From contig NZ_CALWJM010000005.1 of the NCBI RefSeq assembly GCF_944381005.1, positions 1 through 64,000 on the forward strand: DNA of 64,000 nucleotides. Reading direction: 5' to 3'. This DNA comes from an uncultured Butyricicoccus sp. GTDB taxonomy: Bacteria; Bacillota; Clostridia; Oscillospirales; Butyricicoccaceae. Positions 28,006 to 41,113 of this stretch are shown here, in pieces; position 1 is the first letter of the stretch; every line of letters begins with the position of its first letter. The position numbers and the translations under genes were made by a program. The notes beneath the pieces were generated by a model, which saw only the letters and a program-made list of their open reading frames with translations, was not told where the DNA came from and made no database searches.

Positions 28006-28692
28006 TTATTCCGAGGTGTACGGTGAAATTTTACAAAAATCGTCCTTGGAAAAGGGATGAATCTGGATGGTGGGCGGGATGGTGCCGGGGACGCTGACCA
28101 GCAAGACAGCGCCGGACGGCAGCACCGCGCGGGTCAGTGCGTGCGGGTTCCCGAACGCATCGGCGTGCGAGCAATCGCCCAGCGATACAGACACTTGGCG
28201 CAGATTGCCCGCGATACCGCAACCGATTTCTTTCAAAACGGCTTCTTTTGCCATCCATAGGTCAAAAAAACGGTCAGGTTCACGGCGCACAAGGGCTTGT
28301 TCCTGCGGCGTAAAGAAGCGTTCGACAAGTCCGGAGCGCACCGGGCGGGGCAATTCCAAATCAATGCCGACCGGCACATTGGAAAGCGCACACACAATCG
28401 TTTGCCCGCTGTGTGTCAGCGACAGGTGAACGTCGGGCAGGTCGGGCAGATACGGCTTGCCGCCCGGCGCGGCGGCGCGCACAGGCGGCAGAGAGACTCC
28501 CGGTAACAGGTCACGCACGGCGGCATATAATAACAAATCCCCGGTCAGCGAACAGGCACGCGCCTGTGGGTGCGTGATACGCGCCAGAGCCTGCTGGCGG
28601 GCGGGGCACAACCATTGCGCCGCATGGGAAAGGGGCAATGGTTGTGCTTGTGCTTCGAGCAGCGTGACCGCTGGTGTGGGGGAAGCACTCAT
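28006..28692 (-). CDS. 4'-phosphopantetheinyl transferase, Sfp type
   Basis: A 228-residue enzyme that transfers phosphopantetheine from CoA to carrier proteins. The magnesium-binding motif VGIDLE (about residue 111) and WMAKEAVLKEIG (about 146) are both intact, and HLSLTHSG near 89 matches the third family motif. The GTG/ATG region at 28692 overlaps the kinase stop by four bases, so it is the third gene of the two-component operon. The partner carrier protein is not in this window. It could serve a peptide or polyketide synthase, or act as the general fatty-acid synthase activator. Confidence 0.88.
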   Translation of the reverse strand: MSASPTPAVTLLEAQAQPLPLSHAAQWLCPARQQALARITHPQARACSLTGDLLLYAAVRDLLPGVSLPPVRAAAPGGKPYLPDLPDVHLSLTHSGQTIVCALSNVPVGIDLELPRPVRSGLVERFFTPQEQALVRREPDRFFDLWMAKEAVLKEIGCGIAGNLRQVSVSLGDCSHADAFGNPHALTRAVLPSGAVLLVSVPGTIPPTIQIHPFSKDDFCKISPYTSE

Positions 28693-30365
28693 AGCACAGC
28701 CCCCGGGTCAGATGGCCATTGAATGGTGAAGGCGGTGCAGTCCTCCTCGGACGTGACCGAGATAGATGCCCTGTGAATTTCGCAGATGTGTTTGACAATG
28801 GACAGCCCCAGACCGGTGCCCGGTACTTCTTTGGAACGCGACGCATCGGCGCGGTAAAAGCGCTCAAACACATGGGGCAGCGCGTCGGCGGGAATGGCAG
28901 CGCCGGTGTTGGCAATGCGCAACGTAACACCCGCCTTGTTCTTTTTCAGACTGATATCTACCGTACCGTCTGGACGGTTGTATTTAATCGCGTTGTCGCA
29001 CAGGTTGGACAGCACTTCATCCACCATCGTGGGAATGGCGCGGATGACGCAGGGCGCGCCGTGCATGGCGATTTTGACTTGGAATTTGTTGGCTTTGTCC
29101 GCCATGCGCGTGCATACCGAGTCTGCCAAGTGATACAGGTCAATATCTTCAAAGTTCAGACTGCCGCGCCCCTCATCCAGACGGGATAATTTCATGATAT
29201 CATCTACCAGCGTCAGCAGGCGGGCGGCTTCGTCATGGATGCGTGCGGCAAAGCTGGGCACATCTTCGGGCTTTGCCAGACCATAGCGAATCATTTCGGC
29301 ATAGCCCAACACCGAGGTCAGCGGCGTTTTTAACTCGTGTGTGACGTTAGCCGTGAACATGCGGCGCGACTGTTCGGCCGCATATTGAGAGGAGATGTCA
29401 AGTACCAGCATGACAACACCGCGGATGCCGTCATCGACATGTACTGGACTGAACGACAGGCGCAGATGATGACCAGCGCGTTCGAGCGTGTTGACCGAGG
29501 ATTCCCCGGACAGTGCGGTTTGTGCGGCGTGAATCACATCGGGGTTGCACTCGAAGGAATCCAGCGGCAAACCGGGCGCGGCAGGCGCGTCGAGCAGCCG
29601 CCGTGCGGCACGGCTGCATGTGAGCACGGTCAGGCGCTCGTCGAGCAGCACCAAGCCTTCATCCATTCCGGCGGTGATGGCATCAAATTCAATCTGTTTG
29701 CGGTGCAGGGCGGCAATTTGCAGCGAGATTTGTTTGTTTTGTGCGCTTAACCGGTGCAACAGCGGTGCAAGCTCATCATATACATCGTTTTCCAGCGGCT
29801 TGGTTGGGTCGATGGCGTTGATGGGGCGCACAAGCTGTTCGGTCAGACGTGCGGACAACAGGGCAGACAACAAAAAGATGATGACGATAACTGCCAGCAT
29901 CGCCGGAATGGTGTCCACGACCGAACGCATGACCAAATCGGTCGTGTTTGCCACGCGCAGCACATCACCTGACGGCAGCCGCAATGCAACATAGCAGGTC
30001 AGTTCGTCCAATGTCGAGGAAATGCGCACGCCCTCTCCCGTACCGGTTTTGCGCGCCTGCTCAAATTCCGGCCGTTGGGCATGGTTTTCCATCTGGCTGA
30101 TATCAGCGTTGGAATCATAGAGTACCGTGCCGTCCTGCGCAATCAGTGTCACACGCGAACGGTCAGATTCACCGATATCAGATAAGGTGGCCATCTGGTC
30201 GGCCGCACCCAGATAACCGGCAGCCGCAATCGCAGCTTGCCTGGAGGTCTGCTCGGTCAGCTCGTGCAGACCGTCACGCCAGCGCAGCGCCAACATGGCT
30301 CCGCTGGTCAACAGCGCAACCAATGTTGCAAGTGCTAACATGCGCTGGTAAATCCGTTTTTTCAT
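28689..30365 (-). CDS. Membrane sensor histidine kinase (PhoR-like)
   Basis: A 558-residue kinase. Order: membrane helix 1 (about residues 9-28), an extracytoplasmic sensor region (about 30-150), helix 2 (about 152-174), a HAMP-like linker, a PAS-like domain (about 215-325), the H-box NVTHELKTPLTSVLGYAEMI (about 337-356) and a HATPase_c domain with LCDNAIKYNR (N-box, about 452) and GTGLGLSIVKHICEIH (about 517). The layout matches PhoR and WalK relatives. It is coupled to the response regulator by an ATGA overlap. The signal is not known. Confidence 0.94.
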   Translation of the reverse strand: MKKRIYQRMLALATLVALLTSGAMLALRWRDGLHELTEQTSRQAAIAAAGYLGAADQMATLSDIGESDRSRVTLIAQDGTVLYDSNADISQMENHAQRPEFEQARKTGTGEGVRISSTLDELTCYVALRLPSGDVLRVANTTDLVMRSVVDTIPAMLAVIVIIFLLSALLSARLTEQLVRPINAIDPTKPLENDVYDELAPLLHRLSAQNKQISLQIAALHRKQIEFDAITAGMDEGLVLLDERLTVLTCSRAARRLLDAPAAPGLPLDSFECNPDVIHAAQTALSGESSVNTLERAGHHLRLSFSPVHVDDGIRGVVMLVLDISSQYAAEQSRRMFTANVTHELKTPLTSVLGYAEMIRYGLAKPEDVPSFAARIHDEAARLLTLVDDIMKLSRLDEGRGSLNFEDIDLYHLADSVCTRMADKANKFQVKIAMHGAPCVIRAIPTMVDEVLSNLCDNAIKYNRPDGTVDISLKKNKAGVTLRIANTGAAIPADALPHVFERFYRADASRSKEVPGTGLGLSIVKHICEIHRASISVTSEEDCTAFTIQWPSDPGAVL

Positions 30366-31048
30366 TTTGGTTCCGCTCCGATTTTATAGCCCACACCGCG
30401 TACCGTTTGAATCTGCGCACTGGGAGTGCCCAGTTTTTGGCGCAGGGTCTTAATGTGCATGTCAACCGTGCGGCTTTCGCCCTCGAACCCAAAGCCCCAT
30501 ACCGCTTCCATGATTTTTTCACGGGTCAATACAATATCTGCATTTTCCATCAGATAGTGCAGCAGGTCAAATTCTTTGAGCGTCAGCACGACCGGCTGAC
30601 CAGCCGCTTCCACGGTATGGCGTGCCGTGTCCAATGTAATGTCGCCGAGGGTCAGCGCGTTTGTGACCGGCTGGGCACGCTGTACACGGCGCAAAACCGC
30701 CTTGATGCGCGACATCAGTTCCATCACACCGAACGGCTTGCACAAATAGTCGTCGGCACCGTCGTCCAGACCGCGCACCTTATCGTATTCCGCTGTCTTT
30801 GCCGTCAGCAGGATGACCGGCAATGCCGCTGTGCGCGGCGTTTCACGCAGCGTGTGCAGGATGGTCAAACCGTCCATACCCGGCAGCATAATGTCGAGCA
30901 ATACAAGGTCGGGGCAAGCGGTTTCCAGACGCTCGAAAAAAGGTCCGGCACTGTCAAATCCTTCGGCATCGAATCCGGATGCGCGCAGCGCATATAAAAC
31001 CAGTTCTCGAATGTTTACATCATCTTCTACACAATAAATCATAGACAT
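30362..31048 (-). CDS. OmpR/PhoB-family response regulator
   Basis: A 228-residue transcription regulator. The receiver has acidic residues EDD near residue 7, the phospho-acceptor Asp in LVLLDIMLPGMDG (about 50) and the conserved Lys in LCKPFG. The winged-helix DNA-binding end includes SRTVDMHIKTLRQKLG. I place the start at ATG 31048 (MSMIYCVEDD), behind AAGAGG; a longer frame upstream gives 27 residues foreign to the family. It is the first gene of the operon with the kinase and the phosphopantetheinyl transferase. Confidence 0.94.
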   Translation of the reverse strand: MSMIYCVEDDVNIRELVLYALRASGFDAEGFDSAGPFFERLETACPDLVLLDIMLPGMDGLTILHTLRETPRTAALPVILLTAKTAEYDKVRGLDDGADDYLCKPFGVMELMSRIKAVLRRVQRAQPVTNALTLGDITLDTARHTVEAAGQPVVLTLKEFDLLHYLMENADIVLTREKIMEAVWGFGFEGESRTVDMHIKTLRQKLGTPSAQIQTVRGVGYKIGAEPK

Positions 31049-31100
31049 GGTTCGCGTTCCTCTTTTTGCAATCAAATAATATGAGACAAGTGTTTCTTTT

Positions 31101-31129
31101 AGTATATCGGGTTTCTTTGGAAGCGGCAA
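31101..31129 (-). promoter_or_regulatory. Sigma-A promoter of the two-component operon
   Basis: On the minus strand, TTGCCG (31129-31124) and TATACT (31106-31101) with 17-base spacing. Confidence 0.75.
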
Positions 31130-31334: not shown

Positions 31335-31430
<96 letters not shown>

Positions 31431-31467
31431 TTCATCTGGCGGTTGAAACCAATAAAATAGCGTTTTT

Positions 31468-31557
31468 GGAGAACTACCCAAGTGGTGAAGGGGCTCCCCT
31501 GCTAAGGGAGTAGGGCGCGAAAGCGTCGCGAGGGTTCAAATCCCTCGTTCTCCGCCA
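31468..31557 (+). tRNA. tRNA-Ser (anticodon GCT)
   Basis: The acceptor stem GGAGAAC pairs with GTTCTCC, followed by G and encoded CCA. The anticodon loop CCCTGCTAAGGG gives GCT. The variable arm includes GGCGCGAAAGCGTC and the T arm is AGGGTTCAAATCCCT. It probably shares the upstream promoter. Confidence 0.97.
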
Positions 31558-31730: not shown

Positions 31731-34034
31731 TTAATATTTCCCATCAAATCCGCCGAATGTGTCAAAATTTGAGGTATCGTATGACGGTGTCGAAGCGGTA
31801 TTTGCTGACGGTGTGGTATAGGAGAAATTAGATTGCATGGTGCCCAAATCGGTTTCGGAAAGTACGCTTTGGTCGAGCTGGAAGCCAAGAATCAGCTTTT
31901 TCAGGATTTGAGACTGTGCAGTCAATTCTTCGCTGGCAGCAGCACCTTCCTGTGCCGTTGCCGAGTTGGTCTGAATGACGCTGGAAATCTGGTCGATACC
32001 GGTTGTGATTTGCGAAATAGAATTTGCCTGTTCATCCGAAGCGATAGAGATTTGCTGAATGGAGTCGGTAATGGTGCGGGCGCCCTCGACCACCTTTTCG
32101 AGCGAACGAGCGGTTGCCTCCATGCTGGAAGTGCCCTGTTCGATAGATTGCAGCGAACGTTCAATTAGGGCAGTGGTTTCCTTGGAAGCGTCAGCAGTTT
32201 TGCCGGCAAGGTTGCGCACTTCGTCTGCAACAACGGAAAATCCACGACCAGCAGCGCCAGCGCGTGCGGCCTCGATGGCGGCGTTGAGCGCCAGAATATT
32301 GGTCTGGAATGCGATGTCTTCAATGGTTTTGATGATTTTACCAATTTCACTGGAGCTATCGCGGATTTCGTTCATTGCGCTCACGGTATTCTGCATCATT
32401 TGATTGCTTTCGGTCATCTGCTGGTTGACCGTTATAACCTTCTGGCTAACCGACTGGGCATTTTCGGCATTGTGTTTGACATGAGCGGAGATATCATTGA
32501 TGGTGGCAGCCAGTTCTTCGATGGAAGAAGCCTGTTCGGTCGCACCTTGGGATAGTGCCTGGGAGCCGTTGGAGACTTGTTCGGAGCTGGAAGCGACCTG
32601 TTCGGCGGCACCATTGATGCGGTACAAGGTCTGGCTTAGCGTTTGCATAATGCGGTGCATTGCCGAATAAATTTCTTTATATTCACCGACATAGCGGTCG
32701 CGTTCACGGCTCTTGACACAGAAGTTGCCGTTTCCGAGTTCGTTCAGGCAGTAATCGACATCGAAAATGATGGCCTTGAGGTTTTCGGTCATTTGCAGGA
32801 ATGCGCGGGAAAGCTGGCCGATTTCATCTTCTGAGTGTACTTGCAGGTCGATGTCAAGATTGCCGGCAACGATACATTCGGCAGCCGAAACGATATCGTT
32901 GATGGGGCGATGCAGACGCTTGAGCACAAAAATGATGGTGATAACAATGACAATCAATGCAACGACACAGATAAGGAGCAGGAACAAAGTGGCCTGCGTC
33001 GTGGTGCGTTGAATATCGACGGTGTTGAGTGCGGTCATAGACCACCAAGTTTGTTCAGCGACCGAGATAGGGCTGTAAAAACAGGTGATTGACTCACCGG
33101 TTTCACGGCGCATGACGATGGTAAATGCTTCGCCTTTTGCCATCGAGTTTTGAATGTAGGCGAGGTCGTCTGCGTTGGGTGTGAAGTCGGAAATATTGAC
33201 ATGTATGTTGTCCAGACTTTCGCTGTCATAAACAATGGTGCCGGTGCTGTCGTAGATGGTTGCCCACATGGAAGGATAATTTTCGTTGGTGGCATTGATT
33301 TTGTCAAAACGGCTGACGTTGATATCGGCCATGACAACACCTTTCAGCACACCATTGTGGATGATGGGCGAGGAATAGGACATCAGCAAATCGTCCTGAT
33401 AATAGTACGGGGTTGTCACGATAGATGTTCTTGTTGTGGCAGCCTGTTCATAGTAGTCCTCGGTGGAGTAGATTTCGTAAGCACCAAAAGGATAAATTTT
33501 TTCGGTTGCACTGTCGGACTGAACCAAAAAAGAATAATTGCGGATGGTAGATTGGAATGCGTATGGCTCAAACATGACACCTACATTAACAATATCATCA
33601 TTGTTCAGGGCGGTATAGCGTGCGGTTGCGGTTAAAAATTGTTCGGCATCGTACATGGTAGCCGAAAGCGGCGTACCGGTATAGATGGTGCTCATGCACA
33701 TCTCTCTTGCCTCCGGGTCGTCGGGTACACGAGCGCTTTGCGGGTCTGTATCGGTCTTAGCGTAGCATTCTTGTAAGTAGCCTTGGATACCAAGGGCAGC
33801 ATTTTCTGCCGTGTCAAAGACTTGCTGAATTTGTGTACCGTTGTGCTGGGCGATGGAGAGCAACTCTCCATAAGTACGCGATTCCATAGCCGAGCGGGTC
33901 ATGGCCAAAACGGATATAATTAAGATAAGGAAGATGACGGCTAAGACGGAGCCGATGAGCAAGGAGAGTTTGGTAGCTAGTTTCATTTTACCCAAAGAAG
34001 GGCGTTTAAACTGCGTTTTTTTCAGCCGCATCAT
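31731..34034 (-). CDS. Methyl-accepting chemotaxis protein 2 with Cache sensor
   Basis: A 767-residue chemoreceptor: basic N-terminus, membrane helix 1 (about residues 20-42), a large extracytoplasmic double-Cache-like sensor (about 45-350), helix 2 (about 355-380), HAMP, and the signalling coiled coil with [19 protein letters not shown] and [14 protein letters not shown] place the start at ATG 34034 (MMRLKKTQ), behind TTGGAGGT; the open frame runs 72 codons further but that part looks like leader. Its C-terminal tail ([16 protein letters not shown]) echoes receptor 1, suggesting a shared origin. Confidence 0.92.
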
Positions 34035-34152
34035 AGTTTCATATACCTCCAAGAAAAAGTGTGGTCTTGCCGCATGGGGAGGTATCCTCCGGTATGAAAC
34101 GAAAGGTGAGGATGAGCCAGCGCACATGCTTGTGGCATTCAAGGATGTTTTC

Positions 34153-34181
34153 ATCATACCAAAAATATAGTCGCGCGTAAA
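34153..34181 (-). promoter_or_regulatory. Promoter of chemoreceptor 2
   Basis: On the minus strand, TTTACG (34181-34176) and TATGAT (34158-34153), 17-base spacing. This gives a leader of about 110 bases. Confidence 0.6.
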
Positions 34182-34255
34182 GGGGTTATTTGGTAATATA
34201 CACAAAAACTGGAAATATTGGTTTGACCTATGAGGCGGTCTGTATAACAAGGAAA

Positions 34256-36853
34256 CTATTGCTGTTTCAGGAAGGTTTGTATTTGTTCATTGGCCTGTTC
34301 GACCTCCCATAACAGGTCGTTGGCAGACATGCGTTCGGCACCGTGTCCCAGAATGATAGCCTGTTCAAGTGCATCTGACGTGGCGACTTTGACGCGATGG
34401 GCGCGGGACAGGTCATAAGAGGCTTTTTCAATATACATATCAGCGGTTTCGGCGGTCTTGGTGTAAACAATGTGAATCCCATGCCGCTTTTCAATCGAGC
34501 CGGGATTGTCTTTGACGCGGTAGGCATCGAATACCAATATTAAATGACAGCGTTTGACCCCTTGATAGTTGCTCAGTAAATGGATAAGGGTAGAGCGGGC
34601 AGCGTCTAAGTCATCGGCGGCTAAGGCTTTGAGAGAATCCCATGCAAAAATAATATTGTAGCCATCTACTAGTAAATAGTCATCGGGCTTGACCCGCGAG
34701 AGCGGTTCGGATACCGTAGCCAATGCGCGTTTCTGACTTTGGCGGAAAGCGTCCAGTCCACGGTTTTTGATGGGGCCATAGGTGCGCACGAAGATTTCTT
34801 CCAGTTCAGCATCCAGCCCGCTGCCGCCCGACCAAACTGCCGCCCGGCGCGGGGTATCATTCGTTGGAATGGGCGAGGGCTGTAAGGTGCGCCCAGAATC
34901 TACATGAGCATGGGCGGGCACTTCATCCCATTTGACCGTATAGCCTGCACCGTGGGCACAAAAGACCGAATCGGGTGGGTTTTCGGTGTCTCGTTCGGGG
35001 TCGTAGCCGCAAGCGGCAATGATTTCATCAGCATTGTGACAAGGCCGATAGCCCGCAAGCACACAGGATAATTGCCCGCGCCCACCTGTATAGGCGGTCA
35101 CATCGGCGGCATAGCCGCGCATGGTGGCAACTGGTGCCTGTCCGGTCAGCACCGAAAAATCCCCTTGCATCGTGGGGGCTTCAAACGAACCGTTCATGCG
35201 CTGAATGTCGGTCATCGCGCGTCCAACCGCAGTTTGTGGTACGCGCAGGGTAAAGTTGTACCACGGTTCAAGTAGCACACTTTGTGCCTGCATCAGTCCT
35301 TGCCGCACGGCGCGATAAGTGGCTTGACGAAAATCACCGCCTTCGGTGTGCTTGACGTGGGCACGTCCTGCCAAAACGGTTATTTTTACATCGGTCAGCG
35401 GGGCACCAGTTAGTACACCGACGTGCGTTTTTTCGGCTAGATGGGTGAGCACCAACCGCTGATAAGCCGGGTCAAGCTGCTCAGTTGGGCAGGCGGTGTC
35501 CAGTTCGATACCGCTGCCGCGTTCGTTCGGCTCCAGTAGCAGATGCACTTCGGCATAATGGCGCAACGGTTCAAAATGTCCAATACCGATAACCGGCGCT
35601 TCAATCGTTTCTTTATAGACAATGCCGCCTTGGTCGAAGGTGACGGCCAGCCCGAAGCGTTCGTCCAGCAAACGGGTGAGCACTTCGAGTTGCACTTGTC
35701 CCATGAGCTGTACATGCAGTTCGCCCAGCGCTTCACGCCACACCACCCGAAGCAGCGGGTCTTGCTCCTCAACGCGGCGCAGTGCTTGCAATAGGGTGTG
35801 TGGGTCGCAGCCCGCAGGCGGAAGTACGCGGTAGGTTAGCACCGGTTCGAGAACAGACGGGCTGCCGCCGGGGTCATCCCCCAAGGGCTGTCCTGCGTAA
35901 GTGTGGGTTAGACCGGTTACCGCGCACACCATACCAGCATCTGCACGGTCGGTGGTCTGGAAGCGTGCGCCCGAATAAATGCGGATTTGATTGACTTTTT
36001 CCTGCCAGTCGGTGCCGTCGGTCTGTCCGGTCACAAGTGTGCGCACGGGCAGACTACCACCAGTAATTTTGAGGTGAGTCAGGCGCACGCCTTGTTCGTC
36101 GTGAGTGATTTTGAACACGCGCGCGCCGAAAGTATCCGGATAGGAAGGCGGTGCGGCAAACCGTTCCAGACCATCCAGAAATTCGCGCACACCGGTCAAA
36201 GACAGCGCCGCGCCAAAGTAGCACGGAAAGACTTTACGGGCGCGGATAAGCGCACAGATGTCGGCATCTGTGGGCGGCTGTCCATTTAAATAGCGGTCAA
36301 GTAAGGTTTCGTCGGTCAGGGCAACCGCTTCGTGCAGCGCATCGGGCGGTGCACCGAAGTCAATGCAGCCGTCTGAAAGCTGGCGGTGCAGTTCGTCTAG
36401 CAACGCTTCCCGTGATGCACCCGGCAAATCCATCTTGTTGACAAATACAAACACGGGGATGTGGTAGCGTTCCAATAGCTGCCACACGGTCAGTGTGTGT
36501 CCTTGCACGCCGTCCGTGCCGCTGATGACCAGAATAGCACAGTCAAGCACTTGTAATGTGCGCTCCATCTCGGCGGAAAAGTCTACATGACCGGGCGTGT
36601 CCAGCAAGGTCACTTCGACCGAATCGCCCAGACCAAACACAGCCTGTTTGGAAAAGATGGTGATGCCGCGCGCGCGTTCAATGGTGTCGGTATCCAAAAA
36701 GGCGTTTTTGTGGTCAACGCGACCCAGCTTGCGCACCGCGCCGGTTTCATACAGGATTGCTTCAGATAGCGTGGTTTTACCCGCATCAACATGGGCCAAC
36801 AGACCCGCACAAATATATTTTTTTTGTTTCATTTTTTCTGTCTGTTCTCCCAT
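34256..36853 (-). CDS. EF-G/Tet(M)-like GTPase fused to an NYN (Rae1/YacP-like) nuclease domain
   Basis: An 865-residue protein. Residues 1-650 follow the ribosomal-protection GTPase plan: P-loop [10 protein letters not shown] (about 20-29), switch 1 [17 protein letters not shown] (about 85), NKMD (about 139), then beta-barrel and EF-G-like domains. Tet(M), Tet(O) and Tet(W) are about 640 residues, so about 170 residues are extra. That end has [13 protein letters not shown] (about 697), [10 protein letters not shown] and [10 protein letters not shown], the acidic pattern of NYN domains as in Rae1 (YacP), a nuclease that cleaves mRNA in the ribosomal A site. The predicted protein would bind the A site and might also cut RNA there. 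The start ATG 36853 follows GAGG by eight bases. Resistance function is not shown. Confidence 0.9.
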
Positions 36854-37283: not shown

Positions 37284-37319
37284 TTGCACTTGTGTATGGT
37301 TATGAGTATAATAACCATA
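37284..37319 (+). promoter_or_regulatory. fapA promoter with an inverted repeat over the -10 box
   Basis: TTGCAC (37284-37289) and TATAAT (37307-37312), 17-base spacer. TATGGTTAT (37295-37303) and ATAACCATA (37311-37319) are perfect inverted 9-mers flanking and touching the -10. A third half-site ATAACCATA lies at 37333-37341. Confidence 0.75.
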
Positions 37320-37479
37320 GATAGAGACTGCCATAACCATAAAATGGTAAGCACAGAACGGGGCGATATGCGCAAGCATCGGCGTGTTCTTGACAATAGT
37401 TGACCAAAGCTGGAAACCAATCGTAAGAGGGATGAAGATTGGAGGAAAGCTGTGAAAATGGAAGGAGTGGGGGGACTGC

Positions 37480-39168
37480 ATGGCAGGATGGAAAGGATTA
37501 TTTTCAAGAAAGCAAAATGATGTGCCCGAAAACCAATCGGACAGCAACAAAAATGCAACAGCATTTGAGGTTGTAATGGCGCCTACCTGTAAGATTTCTT
37601 CACTTTATGAGTTGAGTCATACAAGACAAAGCCAAAAATCATTTCGGATTCCAGTGATAGCCAGTTCACAGAAGGAAATCGTTTTGTCAAACGAGCAGAT
37701 AAAGATTGAGCAGGCTAAGCTCAAAAATAGTCTGGAAATGGCGGCAAAAAAGCGTTGGATGAAGGCTTTTTCACATGGTATGGACAGACCAGTAGACAGT
37801 TTGGACGAAGATGTTTTCGTGCATATTGCGGATAATAAAATGATGGCGTGGGTGCTGTTGTTTCCGGCGCTTGGCACTGGCAAGCAACTAACTGGTTCCT
37901 ATATCCTTCGTGAGCTGATTAACCAAGGCGTGACCTTTGGCATTGATTATAATTTTCTGTATTCGCTGCATACACAGGAAAAGTTCGATTTTTGTCTATT
38001 TCCTGTGGCCTACGGCAAATTGCCTGTTTCCGGTCAAAACGGCCGTATCGTTGAACTTTATCCGCGCGATGTTGATTTAAAAAATGAACACTGCGAACTC
38101 AGTCATGTGGATTATGCGTGGCTCAACCTCAGGCGCAAGGTACAGAAAGGCGGCGTTATCTGTGAAATCATTCCGCCTATGCCGGGTATCTCAGGGATTA
38201 CGGTAACACGCGAACTGATTTTGCCCGAACTACTGGAGGGGCAAGCGGTGGAAGTACCGCAGGGCCGAAACACCTGCCTCTCGGAAGATGGCCGGTATCT
38301 GGTCGCGGAAAAAGAGGGCAATGTTGGTTATTCGGGTAAGAATTTTCAGGTCAAGCCGATTTTGGAAATTTTTAATGGCATTGGGCCAAAAGATGAACAC
38401 AACATCAATTTTTTGGGTGATGTACATATTCATGGGGATGTATGCCCGAATGTCGTCATTCGTGCCACCGGCGATGTACAGATTGACGGCGTGATAGAAG
38501 CGTGTACGATTGAAGCCGGTGAAAATGTTGTGGTGTCCGACGGCATCCAAGGTCAGCACGGTGCAACCGTTCGGGCGCACAAAAGTGTATATGCGCGCTA
38601 TCTGGAAAACTGTGATGTGTATGCCCAAGGCGTGGTGCAGGCCGACTGCATCATTGACTGCAACATTTACAGCAACGGTACGGTGACAGCGCGAACCGGA
38701 AAGGGCATTATTCTGCGCGGAACCATTCGCAGTTCTCAGGGCGTGTTTGCCAAGGTGATTGGCTCGCGGGCTGACCAAGAAACGCATATTGTGCTGGGCG
38801 GTCTGCCCTGTGATGAGGAAGAACAGGATAAGATTGCCGAAGAACTGCAAAAAGCGACCGATGAAATCAACCGTATATCGGCAATGCCCAAAACGCGCGA
38901 AAATGACAGTATATTGTCTAAGATGCGGCTGAACCAGTGCGTGGCGAAGATGAAATTGGAACGCTTTCAGAAGGATTTGGAAGCGTATAACGCCAGTATC
39001 CGTGGAAACGACCCACGCAAGTTGATATCTAATCACATATATCCGGGTACCGAAGTTACGATACTGGATAAGGTGTTTACTGTTCAGTATTTGCAGGCAA
39101 ACTGCACCATTGGTATCAGAGATGACGGAAGACTTGGATATATTTCGAGTGAGGAGGCTATTTCGTGA
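37480..39168 (+). CDS. FapA-domain (DUF342) protein
   Basis: A 562-residue cytoplasmic protein. The first 250 residues are a mixed domain; the middle (about 260-420) is Gly/Val-rich and repetitive, as expected for the beta-helix of FapA (DUF342), with phrases such as DVHIHGDVCPNVVIRATGDVQIDGVIEAC. A coiled-coil segment (about 445-500) and a small C-terminal domain follow. Vibrio FapA affects polar flagellar assembly; most clostridial relatives are uncharacterised. ATG 37480 lies behind GTGGGGGGACTGC. Its stop overlaps the start of cheX by four bases. Confidence 0.85.
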   Translation: MAGWKGLFSRKQNDVPENQSDSNKNATAFEVVMAPTCKISSLYELSHTRQSQKSFRIPVIASSQKEIVLSNEQIKIEQAKLKNSLEMAAKKRWMKAFSHGMDRPVDSLDEDVFVHIADNKMMAWVLLFPALGTGKQLTGSYILRELINQGVTFGIDYNFLYSLHTQEKFDFCLFPVAYGKLPVSGQNGRIVELYPRDVDLKNEHCELSHVDYAWLNLRRKVQKGGVICEIIPPMPGISGITVTRELILPELLEGQAVEVPQGRNTCLSEDGRYLVAEKEGNVGYSGKNFQVKPILEIFNGIGPKDEHNINFLGDVHIHGDVCPNVVIRATGDVQIDGVIEACTIEAGENVVVSDGIQGQHGATVRAHKSVYARYLENCDVYAQGVVQADCIIDCNIYSNGTVTARTGKGIILRGTIRSSQGVFAKVIGSRADQETHIVLGGLPCDEEEQDKIAEELQKATDEINRISAMPKTRENDSILSKMRLNQCVAKMKLERFQKDLEAYNASIRGNDPRKLISNHIYPGTEVTILDKVFTVQYLQANCTIGIRDDGRLGYISSEEAIS

Positions 39169-39632
39169 ATTCGCTCACACATGAACAAATGCAGAGTATC
39201 TTAAATAATGTAATGATAGGTACCACGTCCCAAATGGCAAACATTGACCTGAAAAATCAGGAGTTTTCGCTTTCGGATGACCTGTGCACGGTCAATATGA
39301 TGTTTGCCGGCAACTGTGAAGTGACCATTTCTTTATATGCCGATAAATCGTTCTTGGTGCGGTTGACACAGGAAGTGCTTCAAGAACAAGAGGTCACCGC
39401 AGAGGATGTGGAGGACACGGCAAAGGAATATCTGAATGTAATCTGCGGCCATCTGACACGGGAGCTGTTTCCGCTGGTCAACAAGCCGACCAAGCTCAGT
39501 TTTCCCAGTTTCCAGAATGGACGGCACACGTTGGATAAAGAAACGCAATACTCCTGCGAACTTTATTATATTAACAAGGATAAAGACGGTGTTTTGCTCG
39601 TTTTGGAGCTTTCTATGCATCCAAATGAGTGA
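39165..39632 (+). CDS. CheX-like phosphatase-domain protein
   Basis: A 155-residue protein of the CheX/CheC-like fold; family members dephosphorylate CheY. It begins at GTG 39165 inside the fapA stop (TCGTGA), behind GAGGAGG. The region EDVEDTAKEYLNVICGHLTRELFP (about residues 79-102) resembles the conserved helix ExxxN...NxxxG..: E near 82 and N near 91 could be the catalytic pair. It sits between FapA and a lone CheY-like receiver, so the pair may form a phosphatase-receiver module. Confidence 0.75.
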   Translation: MNSLTHEQMQSILNNVMIGTTSQMANIDLKNQEFSLSDDLCTVNMMFAGNCEVTISLYADKSFLVRLTQEVLQEQEVTAEDVEDTAKEYLNVICGHLTRELFPLVNKPTKLSFPSFQNGRHTLDKETQYSCELYYINKDKDGVLLVLELSMHPNE

Positions 39633-39692
39633 ATGTATGATAATTGCATCATCGCCGGGACAAACCAAAAATGAAAAAGGAGCAAAAATCAT

Positions 39693-40064
39693 ATGTCTAA
39701 GAGAATTATGGTTGTAGATGATTCCAGAATCGTACAGTTACAGATGCAGAAGGTACTAGCGGATTCGCAATATGAAGTAGCAGTATGCTGTAAAAACGGA
39801 CAGGAAGCCATCGAGAAGTACGAAACGGAAAAACCCGATTTGATTACAATGGATATTTTAATGCCCGGAATCGATGGCTTGGAAGCTGCGCGCCAGATTA
39901 TAGAGAAGCATCCGGACGCCAAAATATTGATGGTTTCTTCGCTGGCATATGATGATACCATGCAGGAAGCCAATAAGATTGGCGCCAAGGGATTTATCTA
40001 TAAGCCATTTGACAGAGAACAGGTTCTGAAATGTCTGGATGATATTTTTGCAGAGAATGAATAA
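39693..40064 (+). CDS. Single-domain response regulator (CheY-like)
   Basis: A 123-residue receiver with no output domain. Key residues are present: acidic pair VVDDSR (9-10), phospho-acceptor Asp in TMDILMPGIDG (about 54), Ser in MVSSLAY (about 82) and Lys in IYKPFD (about 106). It begins ATG 39693 behind AAAGGAGCAAAAATCAT. It should be the substrate of the CheX-like protein before it. A matching kinase is not visible in this window. Confidence 0.92.
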   Translation: MSKRIMVVDDSRIVQLQMQKVLADSQYEVAVCCKNGQEAIEKYETEKPDLITMDILMPGIDGLEAARQIIEKHPDAKILMVSSLAYDDTMQEANKIGAKGFIYKPFDREQVLKCLDDIFAENE

Positions 40065-40153
40065 AGAAAATCCAACTGGATGATATCGCCGCCAGTCCAT
40101 GACAGGTATGGATTGGCGGCTTTTGTCTGCACAGGAAAGGAAGAAGAAAAAGC

Positions 40154-41113
40154 ATGGATAAAATCAAAACGGTCGCGTTGATAGGATTGGGTGCAATCGG
40201 TTGTTCGGTGGCGCGTGAGCTGTGTCAGGCGGTGGGCGAGGAACACTTTCGTGTCATCGCGGGCGGGGCGCGTCGAGCGCGATTGGAGCGCGACGGCGTG
40301 ATTATCAACGGCCAGCCCTGCAAGTTTCCAATCATTGACCCCGAACAGACGGTGGAACCGGCTGATTTGGTGGTGGTGACGGTTAAGTATGGCGGACTGG
40401 AACAGGCTATACGAGATATCGCGGGACAGGTGGGGCCGAATACCACCATTATTTCTTTTTTAAACGGCATTTCATCTGAACAGATGTTGGCCGAAGCGTA
40501 TGGCTGGGAGCGCGTGCTGTATGGCATGGTGCGCCGTGCGGTGGTCATGGAGGGCAACCGCTGTACTTATGACCAATCGCGGGGCACTTACTATTTCGGA
40601 GAAGCCAAAAATCCGACGCGCACACCGCGCGTGCAGCGGGTGTGCGAACTGTTTGAGCGGGCGGGGCTGAACTATCAGGTGCCGCCCGATATGGTGCGCG
40701 AACAGTGGGTAAAATTTATGGGCAACGTCAGCGAAAACCAGTCGGCGGCAATTTTGGGGATTCCGTATGCGGCATGGTATGAGGATGGAAACGATGCCAA
40801 CTGGATTCGGGAGACTGCCTGCCGGGAGGTCATCGCGGTCGCCAATCGGTTGGGCATTGACCTTGGAGAACAAGACCTGATACGTCAGCGCACCTTGGCA
40901 AAATGCGTGCCATCTTGGGGCAAGCCTTCGACCTTACAGGACATAGAAGCAGGTCGCCCGACCGAGGTAGAGTTGTTTTCAGGGACGCTGTGCCGATTGG
41001 GGCGTGAAGTGGGTGTTCCCACGCCGGTCAGTGATTTGTTTTATCATATGATTCGCGTGTTGGAGCAGAAAAACGCCGGTGCATTCGACACAGAACCGGA
41101 TACGGGTGCATAA
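40154..41113 (+). CDS. Ketopantoate reductase family protein
   Basis: A 319-residue NAD(P)-dependent dehydrogenase. It has the Rossmann motif GLGAIGCSVARELC (about residues 11-24) and the conserved VREQWVKFMGNVSENQSAAI (about 179-198), where the Lys would be catalytic. PanE reduces ketopantoate to pantoate for CoA synthesis. The C-terminal helical domain is complete. No other pantothenate genes are near, so another ketoacid substrate is possible. ATG 40154 follows AGGAAAGGAAGAAGAAAAAGC. Confidence 0.85.
   Translation: MDKIKTVALIGLGAIGCSVARELCQAVGEEHFRVIAGGARRARLERDGVIINGQPCKFPIIDPEQTVEPADLVVVTVKYGGLEQAIRDIAGQVGPNTTIISFLNGISSEQMLAEAYGWERVLYGMVRRAVVMEGNRCTYDQSRGTYYFGEAKNPTRTPRVQRVCELFERAGLNYQVPPDMVREQWVKFMGNVSENQSAAILGIPYAAWYEDGNDANWIRETACREVIAVANRLGIDLGEQDLIRQRTLAKCVPSWGKPSTLQDIEAGRPTEVELFSGTLCRLGREVGVPTPVSDLFYHMIRVLEQKNAGAFDTEPDTGA

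Follow-up and report, generated by a model that had tools for sequence, protein, structure and literature searches.

The window, by which we mean the whole 64,000-nucleotide stretch that was analysed, comes from contig C5 of the genome of an uncultured Butyricicoccus sp. (G000) and contains a compact unit of three genes encoding a FapA-domain protein, a CheX-type protein and a CheY-type single receiver. The unit and its flanking elements are as follows:

31731-34250, reverse strand: gene for a methyl-accepting chemotaxis protein (MCP; Pfam), one gene upstream of the operon
37284-37312, forward strand: promoter-like site TTGCAC-N17-TATAAT, upstream of fapA
37480-39168, forward strand: fapA gene (562 aa; Pfam FapA_N and FapA solenoid domains)
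39165-39632, forward strand: cheX gene (155 aa, GTG start; Pfam CheX domain)
39693-40064, forward strand: gene for a CheY-type single receiver (123 aa; Pfam Response_reg domain)
40088-40120, forward strand: terminator-like intrinsic hairpin (14 pairs, T-run) that closes the operon

These three genes are one operon. The first two overlap by four bases (GTGA, a spacing of -4), and cheX is separated from cheY by +60 bases. The tight packing claimed in the original prediction thus agrees with both the Pfam domains and the spacing, and it is right that, locally, the three genes have no flagellar gene, CheA or CheW as neighbours. Downstream, panE starts at 40154, after the terminator-like hairpin. 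The upstream site, whose first base coincides with the start coordinate (37284) given by the original prediction, is a candidate promoter that was read by eye; its -10 box is perfect, its -35 box is weak (3/6), and it is absent from the list of the automatic scan. TATAAT boxes of the vegetative type were found upstream of the operon in several genomes. A sigma-28 consensus scan gave no hit better than chance, either upstream of the window operon or in the flagellar cluster of the same genome, and its failure on the latter renders the scan uninformative. No Rfam elements were found at the operon.

The MCP encoded nearby has a Cache-type sensor domain and lies outside the flagellar cluster, close to the operon. 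It was considered as the cognate receptor and rejected; since this adjacency is absent from the neighbour lists of the other triads, the MCP is probably not part of the unit. A two-component kinase/regulator pair, named from its sequence, is encoded farther from the operon (28689-31129). Two other features of this region are a tandem of tRNA-Ser genes (TGA and GCT anticodons, 31335-31557) and a reverse-strand gene (34256-36853) for one 865-aa protein in which a TetM/EF-G-like translational GTPase is joined, at its C-terminus, to a YacP-type NYN nuclease domain. This protein scores under the curated threshold set for genuine tetracycline-protection proteins.

The FapA protein consists of a short LFSR-type N-terminal segment, a variable linker, a FapA_N domain at residues 114-284 (PF20250; 1.6e-28, 99.8 bits, cut-off 27) and a beta-solenoid domain at residues 308-548 (PF03961; 4.2e-46, 158.2 bits, cut-off 31). 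The hydrophobic-basic LFSR-type segment recurs in most triad FapAs in an N-terminal alignment, and a loose HxLxxLYxLW-like motif precedes their FapA_N domain, the N-terminal position being occupied in some ordinary FapAs by a Jag_N domain instead (L087). A tree built from 64 FapA proteins places the triad-type FapAs in one clade with a support of 1.0. No solved-structure relatives of FapA were found by sequence, and an AlphaFold model built from a two-sequence alignment reached a pLDDT of 45, too poor for a fold search. In one family of Clostridia, the second or third FapA copy is a very long relative of 720-838 aa with an extra N-terminal region (L127, L128, L129).

The second protein is a predicted CheX-type CheY-P phosphatase (Pfam CheX 1.4e-11, 44.7 bits, cut-off 27), as judged from its domain and its residues. 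It carries the motif D84-x3-E88-x2-N91-x22-P114, of which E88, N91 and P114 are invariant in ten CheX orthologues and position 84 is acidic in nine of the ten, and its E and N align with those of CheC-like proteins in the PDB (3h2d). Its structural model (pLDDT 65) has CheX proteins as its best matches (Z 6.8, rmsd 2.8-3.0 over 99-103 residues; these include 1xko, 3hzh_B and 6vpw), a Z-score that barely separates CheX from unrelated folds, which reach 6.7.

The third protein comprises a receiver domain only (Response_reg, 2.1e-28), with the acidic pair D9 and D10, the phospho-acceptor D54, S82 at the T/S position and K104, all invariant in alignments. The solved structures nearest to it are those of chemotaxis CheYs (1tmy and others). 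It is 38% identical to the CheY of the flagellar locus in its own genome, compared with 58-74% to the CheYs of the other modules, and it belongs to a subfamily with a sharp boundary: in 391 genomes of the class, members are confined to G000 (225 bits) and G196 (211 bits), and the next match drops to 123 bits. A feature of this subfamily is the loop after S82, SSLAYDDT. This loop is kept where CheX is present, with one D-to-E change also in a genome without FapA (G034), and the corresponding loop reads TSLDSED in a genome lacking CheX (G030), a hint from one genome of each kind that it may face or contact CheX.

By tblastn and gene reading, the intact FapA-CheX-CheY triad was found in the same order and on the same strand in nine genomes including that of the window, spread over two GTDB families. 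The other carriers are an uncultured Oscillospiraceae MAG (G328, locus L012), G018 (L074), G021 (L075), G025 (L076), G307 (L142), G320 (L143) and G321 (L146), together with G196 (L131) from the other GTDB family; a scan of genome contigs with FapA gave one relative only. Across the carriers, the first gap spans -4 to 69 bases and the second 3 to 158 bases. Conservation is highest for CheY, at the identities given above, and lowest for CheX (19-56% identity to the window protein). In the single pair tested (G320/G321), dN/dS amounted to ~0.25 for FapA, ~0.40 for CheX and ~0.09 for CheY, indicating purifying selection. Given this selection, and with eight other genomes sharing gene order and strand, the triad is more than a chance arrangement. 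Partial forms also occur, namely FapA-CheY without CheX in G030 (L077) and CheX-CheY without FapA in G034 (L080). Most triads lie away from the flagellar cluster amid unrelated housekeeping genes according to the neighbour lists. These neighbours differ between genomes; a mobile island was considered, and no mobile genes were noticed beside the triads. The neighbourhood survey proposed with the original prediction finds the association repeated rather than unique to the window genome, and usually outside a flagellar operon rather than always within one.

Several relatives do tie these genes to flagellar loci. Two genomes (G301 and G302) encode a FapA that belongs to the triad clade yet stands outside a triad, in a ParA-ComFB-FapA-CheW-CheR-CheB-CheA-CheY-CheC-CheD operon by flgK/flgL. 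In G301, which was read in detail, a CheV-like gene follows CheD and the run is divergent from flgK and its neighbours (gene order and sequence served to assign CheA and CheV, and Pfam the remaining genes). In G034, CheX-CheY follows a run of fliD, fliS and genes for an ABC protein, an MCP and a hemerythrin. The flagellar cluster of the window genome has kept the ParA-ComFB pair without FapA, which suggests, without proving it, that FapA moved out of its own flagellar cluster. The pair, a ParA-like ATPase followed by a ComFB protein, is located at L068:8851-10482 (contig C12 of G000), and a similar pair within a flagellar cluster is found at L144:7340-8734; ComFB has been described as a c-di-AMP receptor (PMC12313861). 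In at least 21 flagellated Clostridia, cheC is followed 1.5-2.4 kb downstream by an ordinary FapA gene. A link between FapA and CheC-family phosphatases is therefore widespread, and the triad looks derived.

The absence of flagellar genes from the operon does not extend to the genome. Contig C12 contains a full flagellar and chemotaxis set: CheA, CheW, CheR, CheB, CheV, CheD, CheC and CheY on the chemotaxis side, and FlgN, FlgK, FlgL, FliS, FliD, FliA, FlhA, FlhB, FliR, FliQ and FliP on the flagellar side, along with FliY/N (with CheC domains), FliM, MotA, MotB and basal-body genes. CheR, CheC, CheD, FliA, FliY, CheA, CheV and FliM were named by family searches and the rest by sequence and gene order. 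The genome encodes three CheW-domain proteins (CheA, CheW and CheV), all on C12, and hence one chemotaxis kinase. A separate chemosensory system would have a CheA and CheW of its own; here, the sole CheA, CheW and CheV are those of C12. Two CheY-type proteins are known in the genome, one on C12 and one in the window. A position inside or next to a flagellar locus is frequent in the FapA family, not defining for it, and is not that of the window FapA, which is nonetheless encoded in a flagellated genome.

Co-occurrence points in the same direction. Among 60 sampled genomes of the window's family, 21 have FlhA and 12 have FapA, every one of the latter being among those 21 (hypergeometric p = 2.1e-7). 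At the level of the class (243 genomes), 85 have FapA, 100 have FlhA and 84 have both (Fisher 1.7e-47); as neither p-value is corrected for shared ancestry, both overstate independence. The sole class genome with FapA and without FlhA (G122) has a FapA of the ordinary flagellar-locus clade, making gene loss or an assembly gap likely. Two triad carriers, G328 and G196, are also FlhA-positive, and no triad-type FapA was found in any FlhA-less genome surveyed. The original prediction had looked to non-flagellated carriers as support for a separate system, and none turned up in this survey. The idea that the three genes form a separate, non-flagellar system gains no support: the window genome has the set on C12, and all genomes found with a triad-type FapA are FlhA-positive.

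Signal control of FapA has a precedent in Vibrio. In V. vulnificus and V. cholerae (VCA1085), HubP brings FapA to the flagellated pole, FapA binds EIIA-Glc in its dephosphorylated form, and together EIIA-Glc and HubP set the polar placement of FapA (PMC6877527, PMC12918733). The Vibrio protein is a flagellar protein that shares name and family with the window FapA. In contrast to it, the window FapA is co-transcribed with CheX and CheY, belongs to a Clostridia lineage and has a different N-terminal segment. A hypothetical parallel would be a FapA regulated by a CheY rather than by a PTS protein. For CheX, the closest precedent is Borrelia burgdorferi, where CheX dephosphorylates a CheY (CheX-CheY3; PMC3641820). 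The window CheX belongs to the same CheX family as this protein and the CheX of Thermotoga maritima. In B. burgdorferi, the CheX-CheY3 partners are encoded in a cheA-cheW-cheX-cheY operon, which is not known to include fapA. The canonical Clostridia flagellar locus resembles the window in that FapA lies near a CheC-family phosphatase in flagellated Clostridia. It differs in that the window FapA falls in a separate clade, CheX replaces CheC, a dedicated CheY is present, and the whole lies outside the flagellar locus. A fapA gene has also been described in the flagellar operon of 'Lactobacillus rogosae' (PMC10745875). In the open-access literature, we found no report that links FapA with CheX or CheY; all parts belong to known families, and neither their arrangement nor this FapA subclade seems to have been described.

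We lean, at slightly better than an even bet, towards a detached branch of flagellar chemotaxis, in which CheA signals to the window CheY, CheX resets it and FapA is its flagellum-side partner. The sole CheA, encoded on C12, would phosphorylate the window CheY at D54, and CheX would strip the phosphate off again, keeping the signal short. FapA would most likely be the partner of CheY on the side of the flagellum, a plausible role being that of output or scaffold of the receiver, as originally predicted. The phosphorylation state of CheY could then tune flagellar assembly, placement or working via FapA. We infer all three links, namely CheA as donor, CheX acting on the window CheY and contact between CheY and FapA; the CheA and CheX steps draw on family knowledge (CheX being a CheY phosphatase in Borrelia, PMC3641820), and the FapA step on operon conservation. 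Several observations count against this detached-branch reading: a canonical CheY, CheC and FliY are already encoded on C12, CheX-CheY and FapA each occur without the other (G034, G030, G301), and the operon lies mostly apart from the flagellar cluster, with no sigma-28-type promoter found upstream in the window, although that consensus failed on the flagellar cluster too. The stricter form, in which the single kinase has a dedicated branch whose CheY, reset by CheX, controls FapA directly and FapA constitutes a new class of CheY target, is tentative, and we would sooner bet against it.

The main rival has CheX and CheY serve the main chemotaxis pathway as a phosphate sink or as a pair that terminates its signal; FapA would be a passenger, co-transcribed as a further flagellar gene and making no contact with CheY. 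In its favour, a single CheA would supply both CheYs, the CheX of Borrelia is known to dephosphorylate CheY-P (PMC3641820), and CheX-CheY occurs without FapA in G034 and in other Clostridia (e.g. G201, G203, G279). A passenger, however, sits poorly with the retention of FapA beside CheX-CheY in nine genomes and beside CheY alone in G030, or with the separate clade and own N-terminal segment of the triad FapAs, which suggest specialisation for their partners; we consider this rival rather unlikely, if worth keeping in mind. Alternatively, the window CheY could bind the motor switch (FliM/FliY) as a second ligand, in parallel with the canonical CheY; CheX would then be a phosphatase dedicated to it, and FapA would act elsewhere. 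The solved chemotaxis CheYs closest to it and the presence of FliM and FliY/FliN with CheC domains in its own genome fit this idea, but its 38% identity to the genome's own CheY and its sharply bounded subfamily suggest other contacts, and we regard it as improbable. Least probable by our reckoning, and very much so, is a signalling system that stands by itself and whose output is non-flagellar, for instance pili or the cell surface, which is the broader idea behind the original prediction. Such a system would account for the detachment of the operon from the flagellar cluster in most genomes and for the vegetative-type TATAAT boxes upstream in several of them. It is at odds with the lack of any triad-type FapA in the FlhA-less genomes sampled, the che/fla linkage in G301, G302 and G034, and an operon without a kinase of its own.

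FapA is common in flagellated Clostridia (84 of the 100 FlhA-positive genomes sampled), and among the papers found its role is described only in Vibrio. By joining FapA to a phospho-switch and a phosphatase, the operon leads to the hypothesis that a CheY sets the activity of FapA. Were this so, motor rotation and flagellar assembly or placement would both be governed by a single chemosensory kinase in these bacteria.

CheX domains were also encountered in other arrangements. Tandem matches (two or three) lie beside CheY at G201:C1:2311245-2312491, G203:C11:1869-3625 and G279:C62:245982-247229, sites of other Clostridia at which FapA had no match. G008 encodes a bacteriohemerythrin-CheX fusion of 286 aa (L018:821-1681) adjoining ATP synthase genes, and G033 a GGDEF-hemerythrin-CheX fusion of 596 aa (L035:13-1803). 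Neither genome gave a match to FlhA or CheW, and in both, CheX domains are apparently used outside chemotaxis, perhaps in oxygen-dependent signalling.
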